DNA from: Flavobacteriaceae bacterium R38
GTDB taxonomy: Bacteria; Bacteroidota; Bacteroidia; Flavobacteriales; Flavobacteriaceae
Assembly: GCA_009901575.1 (NCBI GenBank)
Contig: WXYP01000001.1
Location: 806,001 to 870,000 of the forward strand
DNA length: 64,000 bases
Direction: 5' to 3'
The notes beneath the pieces are model-generated. The model saw only the letters and a program-made list of their open reading frames with translations, did not search any database and was not told the DNA's origin. Positions 14,586 to 18,095 of the stretch are shown here, in pieces. How positions within the stretch are numbered: position 1 is the stretch's first letter; every line of letters begins with the position of its first letter. The position numbers and the translations under genes were made by a program.

Positions 14586-15347
14586 TTGAACGACGCCATC
14601 AAAATACTTATAGTAGAAGATAATGTAATTATTGCAGATGATATGCAGACGATGCTGGAGGATATCGGCTATGAGATAGTAGGTAATGTTATCGATTTTG
14701 AGCAGGCAGAGAAAGTTTTAAGTCAGAATTATGTTGATTTGGTTTTAATAGACATAATACTGGCTTCAGATAAAACAGGAATAGATTTAGGACAGCATAT
14801 AAGAGACAATTACAATCTGCCCTTTATTTTTGTGACTTCAAATTCTGATAAAGCTACAGTAGAGATTGCAAAAAAGGTTAAACCTAATGGATATTTGGTA
14901 AAACCCTTTGAACAGGAAGATTTATTTACCTCCATAGAAATTGCACTCTCCAGCTTTAGTTACGAAGCAGAACAAGCCAAACAGACTAAAAGTGTTGTTA
15001 GCGAGCAAGATAAAACAAATGTGAAAAATGCAGTATTAAAGGATTCTATCTTTGTTAAAAAGAATAATCTATACTACAGAATTCAATTTGATGATATACA
15101 TTTTATTAAAGCAGATAATGTTTATCTGGAAATAAACACTAAAGAAAAGAAGTTCCTGGTTAGATCTGCATTAAAGGATTATCTTGAAAAACTACCTCCT
15201 AACAACTTCTATAGGGCTCATAAATCTTATATTATTAATTTATCTCACATACAGGCTGTAAATAGTAAAGATATTATGATTAAAGATGAATTAATACCTA
15301 TCTCTAAAGATTTCAGGGAATTCATCTTATCCAGCTTAAATTCTTAG
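14586..15347 (+). CDS. LytTR-family response regulator
   Basis: This 253-residue regulator has a receiver domain (residues ~5-125; phospho-acceptor D56 in LVLIDIIL, conserved acidic pair E11-D12, Lys in VKPF) joined by a Gln/Lys-rich linker to a LytTR DNA-binding domain (~150-250: DDIHFIKADNVYLEI ... FYRAHKSYIINLSHIQAV). The start is TTG at 14586 (MNDAIKILIVEDN), as no in-frame ATG suits. LytTR domains bind pairs of ~9-bp sites about 21-22 bp apart. Three such pairs lie in the gap between this gene and the sensor kinase at 16161, its probable partner. See the corresponding regulatory entries. Confidence 0.92.
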   Translation: MNDAIKILIVEDNVIIADDMQTMLEDIGYEIVGNVIDFEQAEKVLSQNYVDLVLIDIILASDKTGIDLGQHIRDNYNLPFIFVTSNSDKATVEIAKKVKPNGYLVKPFEQEDLFTSIEIALSSFSYEAEQAKQTKSVVSEQDKTNVKNAVLKDSIFVKKNNLYYRIQFDDIHFIKADNVYLEINTKEKKFLVRSALKDYLEKLPPNNFYRAHKSYIINLSHIQAVNSKDIMIKDELIPISKDFREFILSSLNS

Positions 15348-15375
15348 AAAAGTTATTAACAACATATTAACAGCT

Positions 15376-15442
15376 TTTCACCACAAGAAAAATCACATTC
15401 ACAACAATCTTTTTATTTTATGTTTTTGGGAATATATATTTA
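15376..15442 (+). promoter_or_regulatory. Promoter 1 of the LytTR locus: paired half-sites plus -7 element
   Basis: Half-sites TTTTCACCACA (ACCACA at 15380-15385) and TTCACAACA (ACAACA at 15401-15406) are 21 bp apart. The -7-like TATATTTA starts at 15435, exactly 34 bp after the second ACAACA. An alternative -7-like TGTATTTG lies at 15446-15453. The geometry matches promoters 2 and 3. Confidence 0.6.
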
Positions 15443-15448
15443 CATTGT

Positions 15449-15550
15449 ATTTGTTGAGAGACAAATCTTTGGAAAAGGTCCCAAATGTTATTATTGATAT
15501 ATAACCAACCAAAAAACGCTTTAAGGAACAAAACTTAAAGCGTTTTTTAT
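15449..15550 (+). ncRNA. Candidate small RNA 1 (~100 nt) of the LytTR locus
   Basis: From the likely start after the -7 element near 15442 to the T-run of a strong hairpin is about 100 nt with no good open frame. A small internal hairpin, TTTGG/CCAAA around 15469-15485, precedes the terminator. Existence is inferred from promoter plus terminator only; the segment could also be a short peptide transcript (a 17-codon frame begins at 15485). Confidence 0.5.
15511..15548 (+). terminator. Strong intrinsic terminator of candidate sRNA 1
   Basis: A perfect 15-bp inverted repeat, AAAAAACGCTTTAAG / CTTAAAGCGTTTTTT, with the 8-base loop GAACAAAA and a T-rich end. The response regulator gene stops 160 bases earlier, so the hairpin fits better as the end of a separate short transcript than as that gene's own terminator, although it may serve both. 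Confidence 0.8.
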
Positions 15551-15630
15551 TATATCCTTTTTTTAACTTGTATCTTCCTCATTATTAGTTGCTAAATGAT
15601 TCATTAAGCTTAAAAAATACAGTTTATCCC

Positions 15631-15698
15631 TTTTCACAACATAAATATGCACTTATACAACAAAAATTTCATTGTAAGCTGTAAATGAGATATGTTTG
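15631..15698 (+). promoter_or_regulatory. Promoter 2 of the LytTR locus: paired half-sites plus -7 element
   Basis: Half-sites TTTTCACAACA (ACAACA at 15636-15641) and TTATACAACA (15657-15662) are 21 bp apart. A perfect -7 element TATGTTTG starts at 15691, 34 bp after the second ACAACA. A TTG at 15672-15674 lies 16 bases before the -7 element. Confidence 0.65.
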
Positions 15699-15704
15699 AA
15701 GTGT

Positions 15705-15805
15705 GAAAATATTTATTTGATAGTGTTATTAATTCCCAGATCTCAATTTTGTTATTTAATGTTTAAAACAAGCCCCGAGTCCCTACTTTTCGGGGCTTGT
15801 TTTTT
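15705..15805 (+). ncRNA. Candidate small RNA 2 (~100 nt) of the LytTR locus
   Basis: The segment from just after TATGTTTG to the T-run of a second GC-rich terminator is again about 100 nt. It shows no sequence similarity to candidate 1 beyond the promoter and the terminator design, and has no convincing coding frame (a 17-codon frame from 15759 merely runs through the terminator). Confidence 0.5.
15765..15803 (+). terminator. Strong intrinsic terminator of candidate sRNA 2
   Basis: A perfect 14-bp inverted repeat, AAAACAAGCCCCGA / TCGGGGCTTGTTTT, with loop GTCCCTACTTT and a T7 tail. It is isolated in an AT-rich gap, more than 400 bases from the nearest upstream stop codon. Confidence 0.85.
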
Positions 15806-15949
15806 TATCTAATAGATTAGTCTCATTAAATTCCCCCTCAACATTATAAAATTATAAGCTAGATAAGCTTAAGAGGTTACACCTAAGTCGTAACTAAATG
15901 TGAATAAAAAAATAGCAGATAATTGTATAGTTAAAGGCAGTTTTAACTT

Positions 15950-16017
15950 TTTACGCAACAAAAAAAACGAGTTACACAACAAAAATTTAACATTAAAATA
16001 TAAATATTATACGTTTA
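15950..16017 (+). promoter_or_regulatory. Promoter 3 of the LytTR locus, reading into the sensor kinase
   Basis: Half-sites TTACGCAACA (GCAACA at 15955-15960) and TTACACAACA (15976-15981) are 21 bp apart and the -7-like TACGTTTA starts at 16010, again 34 bp after the second half-site. No terminator follows, so transcription would enter the kinase gene after a leader of about 137 nt, which contains a small TTCAGA/TCTGAA hairpin at 16122-16138. Confidence 0.6.
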
Positions 16018-16160
16018 CAACCGATTAATAATTAAAATGCAGTAATTCACTTTTTTATAAATGTGTGTTTTTGAATAAAAATGTGAAAACTATTAAAGAT
16101 TTAAAATACATTTTTAATTTTTCAGACGTTATCTGAATACTGCAAAATTTATTTAAGAAT

Positions 16161-18095
16161 ATGTTAGAGAAGCATAAGATATTAAAGCTATTCTTAATTA
16201 ACTTCTTTGTGACAATTAGTTGTTTTCCCCAGACCACTAACGATCCGCTTTCGAAGTTTCAGAAGGCTAACTCTGTGAGTAAACGATTCGAAATTTTCTT
16301 TGAAAATAACGATAAGTACGTTTACAATTCTGCGTATAAATGGCTCGATAAAGTATCGGAGTATTTAAACGTAGCAGAGCAATCAAAAGATTCATCAGAA
16401 ATATTTAAATACAGGACTATGTTAACCAGGGTTTATCTTGACCTTGGTGAATATAAAAAAGGAGCACTTACCGGAGAGAAGCTGTATAAAAGCAATAAAA
16501 AACTAGATCTTCCCGTACGAAAAGAGCTTTTCAAAATTATGGATGAAGCCTATGAAAGATTAGGACTTTTTGAAAAGCAATTGGAAGTACGCACAGAAAT
16601 GAAGAAAAACGGGCAAAGAATACAACTTTATGAAGTTTATTCTAACCTGGGACTTCACAGGCAGGCGATGATGGACTACATAATTGATGTAAAACCAACC
16701 ATCGATGAAAATAATTACCTGGATTATGCCGAATACAATAATAGTTTAGCAACTTTTTTAAGAAAAGATGGTAATTTTTATTCTGCCCGACAAAAAATTG
16801 AAACTGCTCTTAGTTATGTAGACTTATACTTGAAAGACACTAGTGTTGAAAAATCCCCTGAAGAGTTTCGAGATGCAGTATTTCTTCGAGGAACCATTCA
16901 AGGTAATTTAGGTAAATGTCTTATTGCCGTTGGAGAAATAGAAGATGCTATTCCACTGTTAGAAGCTGGAGCATCGTCCAGTAAAGAGCATGACAAAGGT
17001 AAATTTTCGCCCAGGCTAATAGATATGTGGGTAGATTTAGCCGATTCTCATATGCAATTGGGAAAACCCTTTATAGCCAAATCTTATTTAGATAGTATAG
17101 CAAAATCAAATCAATCTATTTACATTACAGAATATAATCGCCTTTTAGCAGACTACTATTTAAATATAGGTGATACAGATTCTGCATCTTATATTTTTAA
17201 AGATTACATTAAAATAAAAGACTCTATTTACGATCATAGTAAAAAGAAAGAATTGTTGGGCTTGTTAGTAAACTTTGATTTGGATAATCAAAAAGACATT
17301 ATTCAGCAACAACGCCTGAATCTGGAGAAAACAAAAGCCGAGATATCTCAGAGAGACAGAAAGATAAATTATGGAATCATAGCCTTAGTATTTACTTTGG
17401 TGAGTTTAGGAGCTGTAGCTTTCGCTTATTTTAAGAGTGTAAAAAATAAACGTTTGATACAAGATCAAAATAAAATAATAGAAACGGCATTAGTTGAAAA
17501 AGATTCGTTATTGAAAGAGATACACCACAGGGTAAAGAATAATTTACAAATGGTATCCAGTCTTCTGAGTATGCAGACAAAAAATACAAAGAGTAAAGAG
17601 GCGATAGAAGCTTTAGAAGAAGGAAAAAGCCGTGTAAAAGCGATGGCATTAATCCATCAGAAATTATATCAGAATGAAGGTTTGGCGGTTATTGAAATGC
17701 AGGCATACGTAGAATCTTTGGTTAATAGTATTCAATCGGTGTACAAAAAAGGAGGTCATGATGTCAATATTAATATTGATGCAGAAGGTACAGAACTTGA
17801 TATAGACAGAGCTATTCCAATGGGATTAATCCTTAACGAATTGGTTTCTAACTCTTTTAAATACGCTTTCCCTAACAAAGAAGGCGGGCAGATTTATATC
17901 AACATCAGAAAAAATGGAGAGCAAGGCTTCTTTGAGTATACAGATAATGGAAAAGGACTTCCGGAAGATATAGAAGAAAGAAGTAACAGCTCAATGGGAG
18001 TAAAATTGATACAACGCTTAGTCAATCAGTTACGTTCTAATCTTAATATTGATAAAGATGCTAAAGGAGCACGGTTCTGGTTTGAATTTAGCTAA
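16161..18095 (+). CDS. TPR-containing sensor histidine kinase, HisKA_2 type
   Basis: The 644-residue protein has a signal/anchor segment (residues ~7-23), a periplasmic TPR-like helical region (to about 390), a short coiled coil, one membrane helix (~405-424), a HisKA_2 phosphotransfer domain with EIHHRVKNNLQMVSSLLSMQ (His 455/456) and a HATPase_c domain (N-box LILNELVSNSFKYA, G-box YTDNGKGLP). There is no receiver domain, so it should pass phosphate to a separate regulator; the LytTR protein encoded 814 bases upstream on the same strand is the natural candidate. The signal sensed is unknown. Its own promoter carries the same paired sites as the two candidate small RNAs, suggesting autoregulation. 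Confidence 0.9.
   Translation: MLEKHKILKLFLINFFVTISCFPQTTNDPLSKFQKANSVSKRFEIFFENNDKYVYNSAYKWLDKVSEYLNVAEQSKDSSEIFKYRTMLTRVYLDLGEYKKGALTGEKLYKSNKKLDLPVRKELFKIMDEAYERLGLFEKQLEVRTEMKKNGQRIQLYEVYSNLGLHRQAMMDYIIDVKPTIDENNYLDYAEYNNSLATFLRKDGNFYSARQKIETALSYVDLYLKDTSVEKSPEEFRDAVFLRGTIQGNLGKCLIAVGEIEDAIPLLEAGASSSKEHDKGKFSPRLIDMWVDLADSHMQLGKPFIAKSYLDSIAKSNQSIYITEYNRLLADYYLNIGDTDSASYIFKDYIKIKDSIYDHSKKKELLGLLVNFDLDNQKDIIQQQRLNLEKTKAEISQRDRKINYGIIALVFTLVSLGAVAFAYFKSVKNKRLIQDQNKIIETALVEKDSLLKEIHHRVKNNLQMVSSLLSMQTKNTKSKEAIEALEEGKSRVKAMALIHQKLYQNEGLAVIEMQAYVESLVNSIQSVYKKGGHDVNINIDAEGTELDIDRAIPMGLILNELVSNSFKYAFPNKEGGQIYINIRKNGEQGFFEYTDNGKGLPEDIEERSNSSMGVKLIQRLVNQLRSNLNIDKDAKGARFWFEFS

Follow-up and report, generated by a model that had tools for sequence, protein, structure and literature searches.

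The window, a 64,000-nt stretch of the Flavobacteriaceae bacterium R38 genome, contains an 813-bp gap (15348-16160) between a LytTR response regulator and a sensor kinase. No protein gene was found in this gap. Pfam matches for the regulator were Response_reg (6.5e-20) and LytTR (1.7e-18). The three promoter-like copies in the gap are designated P1 to P3, and the core sRNA named below is encoded elsewhere in the genome. Features are as follows, in window coordinates:

14586..15347, + strand: LytTR response regulator, 253 aa, receiver plus LytTR DNA-binding domain; start codon uncertain (TTG)
15359..15364, + strand: additional half-site ACAACA, 21 bp ahead of the first P1 half-site
15380..15406, + strand: P1 paired sites ACCACA-N15-ACAACA, half-sites at 15380 and 15401
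15435..15442, + strand: P1 -7 element TATATTTA
15447..15550, + strand: candidate sRNA 1, putatively driven by P1; divergent member with a single pairing module
15478..15486, + strand: GTCCCAAAT in sRNA 1, complementary to AUUUGGGGC of the core sRNA
15511-15548: candidate sRNA 1 terminator, inverted repeat of 15 bp, 100% complementary, then a T-run
15636..15662, + strand: P2 paired sites ACAACA-N15-ACAACA, half-sites at 15636 and 15657
15691..15698, + strand: P2 -7 element TATGTTTG
15703..15807, + strand: candidate sRNA 2, member of a multicopy sRNA family (covariance model R1, E=4e-7 in the whole genome)
15734..15743, + strand: UCCCAGAUCU in sRNA 2, complementary to AGAUUUGGGG of the core sRNA with two G-U pairs
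15765..15803, + strand: sRNA 2 terminator hairpin, inverted repeat of 14 bp, 100% complementary, then a T-run
15782..15788, + strand: CCUACUU, in the loop of the sRNA 2 terminator; complements the AAGUAGG hairpin loop of the core sRNA
15955..15981, + strand: P3 paired sites GCAACA-N15-ACAACA, half-sites at 15955 and 15976
16010..16017, + strand: P3 -7 element TACGTTTA
16161..18095, + strand: TPR-HisKA_2-HATPase sensor kinase, 644 aa (Pfam HisKA_2, 4.1e-27)

The initial annotation had described three promoter-like copies, two strong terminators and a gap free of protein genes. Every half-site and -7 box was recovered at its position, the 21-bp half-site and 34-bp box spacings hold for all three promoters, the terminators proved to be perfect inverted repeats of 15 and 14 bp, each with a T-run, and the lack of a protein gene was confirmed. 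Counting the extra ACAACA at 15359, three half-sites stand in a row at P1, and no half-site spacing other than 21 bp occurs in the gap. Not one of 2000 shuffles of the gap contained even a single 21-bp half-site pair, compared with three in the real sequence. The -7 box has been placed at -12 to -5 relative to the start (PMC9723704). The start of sRNA 1 is an estimate (box +12), and its end was set at the terminator.

In order to determine how far the architecture extends, the genome was scanned with the pattern RCAACA-N15-ACAACA-N28-TAnnTTT, a slightly wider form of the one proposed in the initial annotation. Seven exact matches (0.005 expected from base composition) and four one-mismatch matches (0.23 expected) were obtained, giving 11 sites at zero to one mismatch where approximately 0.24 would be expected. 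Within the 64-kb window, relaxing the pattern to three or fewer mismatches gave 8 matches (0.86 expected). The 21-bp half-site spacing is present in 11/11 sites, and direct repeats about 21 bp apart just upstream of a promoter are the arrangement of LytTR promoters. The eight sites beyond the gap (C3:24777, C5:115783, C5:122095, C5:161473, C5:161748, C5:186736, C5:508273, and C6:33847) are each followed by about 100 nt that contain no protein gene and finish in an intrinsic terminator. Ten sites in total thus precede terminator-ended intergenic RNA genes of about 100 nt and one precedes the kinase, which rules out a regulon limited to the gap. The previously suggested output, the kinase and two gap RNAs, is supported for all three members and is incomplete. 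One imperfect site (2 mismatches, L018, C4:698692 of the R38 genome) also stands immediately before a secreted-protein gene similar to the collagen-like targets seen in relatives (below).

The ten RNA genes are stand-alone and share one regulator box. The common layout of the eight beyond the gap is a 5′ block (GAAGTGTCAAAATGGTAATAG in most) followed by a hairpin with a CCCAAA loop or close variant, and the terminator loop carries TCCTACTT or a close variant. Covariance model R1 was trained on four R38 sRNAs and one from a sister species, with sRNA 2 excluded. Searching the genome with R1 recovered nine loci at E<1e-5, all at paired sites (next match E=0.11), so that 9 of the 10 genes were recognized. 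These included sRNA 2 (15691-15807, E=4e-7), whose UCCCAGAUCU segment is kept in the sister species. The P1 sRNA has diverged too far for R1 and retains GTCCCAAAT. In a fitted 13-member alignment, which leans towards the model, two-sided changes with pairing kept were found in 13/17 pairs, 93% of cells were paired, and 0/500 shuffles reached this level of covariation. A peptide (MVIVL) encoded by the 5′ module ATGGTAATAGTATTA was considered and rejected, since it is not conserved in C3:24832 or C6:33902.

To place these elements in the family, 299 Flavobacteriaceae genomes were surveyed with the site pattern at one mismatch and the box TAnnTTTG. The pattern matched 354 times, versus 29 for a reversed-pattern control. 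A kinase orthologue was present in 55/299 genomes, and two or more sites were found in 54/55 kinase-positive versus 2/244 kinase-negative genomes (Fisher p=7e-56, kinship ignored), with means of 5.9 and 0.11 sites per genome, respectively (about 6 per kinase-positive genome). The sole kinase-positive exception (G246) has paired sites with a box of the TATATTAG type. The kinase-negative genome G300 carries four site-driven sRNA-like units, arranged in tandem and unlike the others in sequence (L362, G300:C81:18500-25500), each ended by a terminator with CCCCAA in its loop. Comparison of the gap, another check suggested earlier, showed the 21/34 spacing to be conserved: the order regulator-site-terminator-site-terminator-site-kinase recurs, whole or partial, in many genera, and the gap of Allomuricauda/Muricauda and Eudoraea records also holds sites. 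The sites co-occur with the regulator-kinase locus, and the LytTR domain is predicted to bind the paired ACAACA sites. The initial proposals of paired LytTR-type sites, of a two-component system activating its own kinase, and of two small RNAs within the gap all gain support from this comparative genomics, as predictions from sequence.

The sRNA sequence itself is not family-wide, as R1 matches were confined to the genus plus two weak ones, and other genera have different RNA sequences at equivalent sites. Site targets outside R38 were read from seven other genomes. Family A RNAs have TTTTCATTTTCATATAGTGTTCTC as an invariant core, and their terminator covaries (10/14 pairs, equaled by 0/500 shuffles). 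This core is 24 nt long and was seen at L141, L151, L156, L164 and the gap loci L032-L035 (alignment A5). Family B RNAs, unrelated in sequence to the R38 family, carry repeated CCCCAAATC, TGAACTTAACC and CCTACTT. Sites in relatives also precede collagen-like and DUF11 surface proteins and a conserved 33-aa reading frame. The latter (MEAQMNQTREDIQVYKYEFLSGIVLLTKKLFML) lies directly 3′ of a LytTR-type site and is followed by a GNAT-like gene (L154, L162, L170, and L174). In several relatives a LytTR-type site sits directly at the promoter of the first gene in a locus of three, with lengths of about 700, about 700 and over 3,800 codons. This locus was identified as the sprC-sprD-sprB gliding-adhesin operon from size, gene order and weak Ig-like matches, with no match to a named family behind the identification; the operon has been described (PMC9723704 and references there).

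A search for CCCAAA...CTACTTATG across the family gave matches in most genomes. The idea that CCCAAATC...CTACTTATG is a ubiquitous mRNA leader motif was rejected, since most of these matches proved to be genes for a second RNA, the core sRNA, read on the other strand. This 71-nt RNA is encoded between purF and sodA (both identified by eye from protein sequences). Its gene has a sigmaA-type box (TAtATTTG), followed by a ACCAUAACAUAAGUAGGUUAAGUUCAUGGU hairpin with an AAGUAGG loop, an unpaired AGAUUUGGGGCAAA segment, and a terminator, which covaries (two-sided changes in 6 pairs). Copies are usually in tandem, roughly 200-300 bp apart, adjoining sodA and purF (example locus L274, 1470-1945). Model R2 found the core sRNA in 251/299 genomes (E down to 3e-21), including 55/55 kinase-positive ones. 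R38 has three matches, two of which were located (C5:261238-261309 and C5:261510-261581). In some copies TTTAACTAAAATATTTT is conserved ahead of the -7 box, where it might serve as a site for a regulator of this RNA.

Two segments of the core sRNA are exposed, and the loop motifs CCCAAA and CCUACUU of the LytTR-driven RNAs are complementary to them. A helix with seven or more Watson-Crick pairs to this RNA was found for 10/10 R38 sRNAs versus 18% of dinucleotide shuffles. Nucleotides in such helices numbered 157 in R38 (16.5 ± 10.6 in shuffles) and 70 in the sister species (13.1 ± 9.9), although the R38 tests are not independent because the sRNAs are paralogues. This complementarity to a base-pairing sRNA exceeds chance, as would be anticipated for sponges. 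Whole-molecule duplex energies were significant only for some R38 sRNAs (z-scores of -1.7 for the P2 RNA and about -1 for C5_161b and C5_115); it is the short modules that carry the support for pairing. In other genera, family B RNAs and leaders contain 2-6 core-sRNA helices each, in a set chosen partly by motif. None of the family A RNAs (0/8), which in relatives are just as LytTR-driven and strongly conserved, pairs with the core sRNA, and sponging it therefore cannot be the role of all regulon RNAs.

The same motifs occur in mRNA leaders. CCCAAA and CCUACUU sit ahead of the sprC start codon in R38 and in relatives, with a giant adhesin ORF downstream of sprC. The R38 sprC-type leader (C6:15133-15174, CCCAAAGCTTT...TTAACCTACTTTAATATATG) gave -28.0 kcal/mol with the core sRNA (z=-3.6), and no LytTR site was found at this leader. 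Both motifs also lie ahead of the start codon of other secreted-protein genes; a lipoprotein-like gene of G207 is one such case, as is its G250 homologue. The kinase leader at P3 was rejected as a core sRNA target, its pairing being not above shuffles.

Taking these observations together, we consider it probable that the LytTR system switches on, besides its own kinase, a set of sponge RNAs, and that these titrate a conserved sRNA which represses surface-adhesin mRNAs. The regulator would bind paired ACAACA half-sites 21 bp apart and, once bound, would activate sigmaA promoters (TAnnTTTG box 34 bp downstream) of the kinase and about ten sRNA genes. The single-stranded CCCAAA segment of the sponges would pair with AGAUUUGGGG of the core sRNA, and their CCUACUU terminator loop with the AAGUAGG hairpin loop. 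Free core sRNA is predicted to pair with CCCAAA...CCUACUU just ahead of the sprC start codon and so block translation, and it may block further surface-protein mRNAs likewise. A stimulus to the kinase would then lead to sponge build-up, titration of the core sRNA and synthesis of surface adhesins. Because the induced RNAs resemble the mRNA leader and complement the core sRNA, sponges freeing sprC-like mRNAs are the simplest reading. Relatives with a site at the sprC promoter would have the regulator both transcribing the adhesin operon and removing its translational repressor, a coherent feed-forward loop. With confidence only somewhat better than even, we regard the main output as the roughly ten sponge genes, titrating the core sRNA and switching translation of gliding adhesins and surface proteins, supplemented in relatives by direct activation of the operon.

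The LytTR-driven RNAs may instead be ordinary trans-acting sRNAs on many mRNAs, in the manner of csRNAs or LhrC, with the complementarity to the core sRNA a side effect; the core sRNA might even silence them. Other conserved modules do exist (the 5′ GAAGTGTCAAAATGGTAATAG in the genus and TTTTCATTTTCATATAGTGTTCTC in family A, the complement of which resembles a start-codon region), pairing with the core sRNA is absent from family A, and direct action on mRNAs is predicted or known for multicopy sRNAs under two-component systems (PMC3091779). Against this, the two most conserved loops of the R38 RNAs and the unrelated family B match the same core sRNA segments, and these segments also match the sprC leader, i.e., mRNA target mimicry, which leaves direct action on mRNAs an unlikely account, though one of some weight. 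A literal Gac/Rsm logic, in which the RNAs are decoys for a protein recognizing CCCAAA/CCUACUU leaders and the complementary sRNA acts independently on the same leaders, would accommodate the short motifs repeated in family B (2-6 pairing modules each) and the equal motifs just ahead of start codons in target mRNAs. Every kinase-positive genome nevertheless encodes an RNA complementary to both motifs and to the stretch between them (TGAACTTAACC, family B), and a protein would not need a complementary spacer; we judge such a decoy quite improbable. A reading in which the sites belong to some mobile or low-complexity repeat and no RNA is transcribed might be entertained given the AT-rich intergenic DNA, but the 354 versus 29 matches in 299 genomes, the hairpin covariation, and the near-perfect co-occurrence of sites with the kinase make a chance origin extremely improbable.

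The sponge reading has partial counterparts among known systems. In Gac/Rsm, a two-component system induces leader-mimicking RNAs that sequester a translational regulator. The likeness to Gac/Rsm suggested in the initial annotation holds in its logic, because the induced RNAs resemble decoys, and fails as membership: GacA is a LuxR-type HTH regulator, whereas Pfam gives Response_reg plus LytTR here, and the DNA box differs too. The conserved loops seen in the R38 RNAs are CCCAAA and CCUACUU, not GGA repeats. The sequestered partner is predicted to be an RNA, most likely another sRNA rather than a CsrA-type protein. SroC, ChbBC and 3′ETSleuZ are RNAs that titrate a base-pairing sRNA and derive from pieces of mRNA or tRNA precursors, whereas each R38 candidate has a dedicated gene of its own, and a single two-component system would control about ten of them per genome. 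LhrC acts on mRNA, and CiaR is not a LytTR regulator. The R38 system accordingly lies outside CiaRH-csRNA, with ACAACA-N15-ACAACA and a LytTR regulator in place of TTTAAG-N5-TTTAAG and CiaR. Like it, CiaRH of Streptococcus combines a two-component system, several similar sRNAs with exposed conserved segments, and a direct repeat at a fixed distance from the promoter box (PMC3091779). The csRNAs complement mRNA initiation regions, whereas the R38 RNAs resemble an mRNA leader and are predicted to pair with another sRNA. LisRK-LhrC of Listeria likewise has a multicopy sRNA family dependent on a two-component system (PMC4132741). It differs in phylum and regulator family, and is not known to involve sponging of a conserved core sRNA. 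The LytTR systems HdrRM and BrsRM have 9-bp repeats with a 12-bp spacer just upstream of promoters, in agreement with the 21 bp seen here, and show positive autoregulation, but have a membrane inhibitor in place of the histidine kinase and protein-coding targets, with no sRNAs described there (PMC6193735). Among Flavobacteriaceae, Rfp18 of F. psychrophilum is needed for protease expression and pairs via its third stem-loop; no LytTR regulator or sponge is described for the Rfp sRNAs (PMC9723704).

The open-access literature searched yielded neither a LytTR-sRNA regulon nor a sponge regulon for this phylum. Two undescribed RNA classes are put forward, the core sRNA in about 84% and the candidate sponge regulon in about 18% of the sampled family genomes. 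To our knowledge, post-transcriptional control in Flavobacteriaceae is almost uncharted. What the analysis provides is a defined site in the DNA, a candidate pair of regulator and kinase, and a predicted physiological output in the SprB-type gliding-adhesin operon, so that experiments can directly address how gliding and surface adhesion are controlled. If the sponge reading is correct, this would be a signaling pathway that acts mainly by making sRNA sponges.

Comparison to Rfam gave no family match above the gathering score for the LytTR-driven sRNAs or for the core sRNA. Low-scoring matches to Yfr10, SpF11 and FtrB were rejected as below curated cut-offs. Flavo-1 (RF01705) was likewise rejected, its matches being a separate element located elsewhere in the genome. 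One Flavo-1 RNA (53 bits, C5:114866-114938 of R38) lies approximately 700 bp from the sRNA gene at C5:115675-115789, which is among those assigned to LytTR-type sites. Finally, a second core-like element, CCCAAATTTGATCGATC-hairpin-AACCTACTTATG, was observed in six genomes (G063, G101, G124, G228, G179, and G013); its opposite strand is possibly another sRNA with equal exposed motifs.
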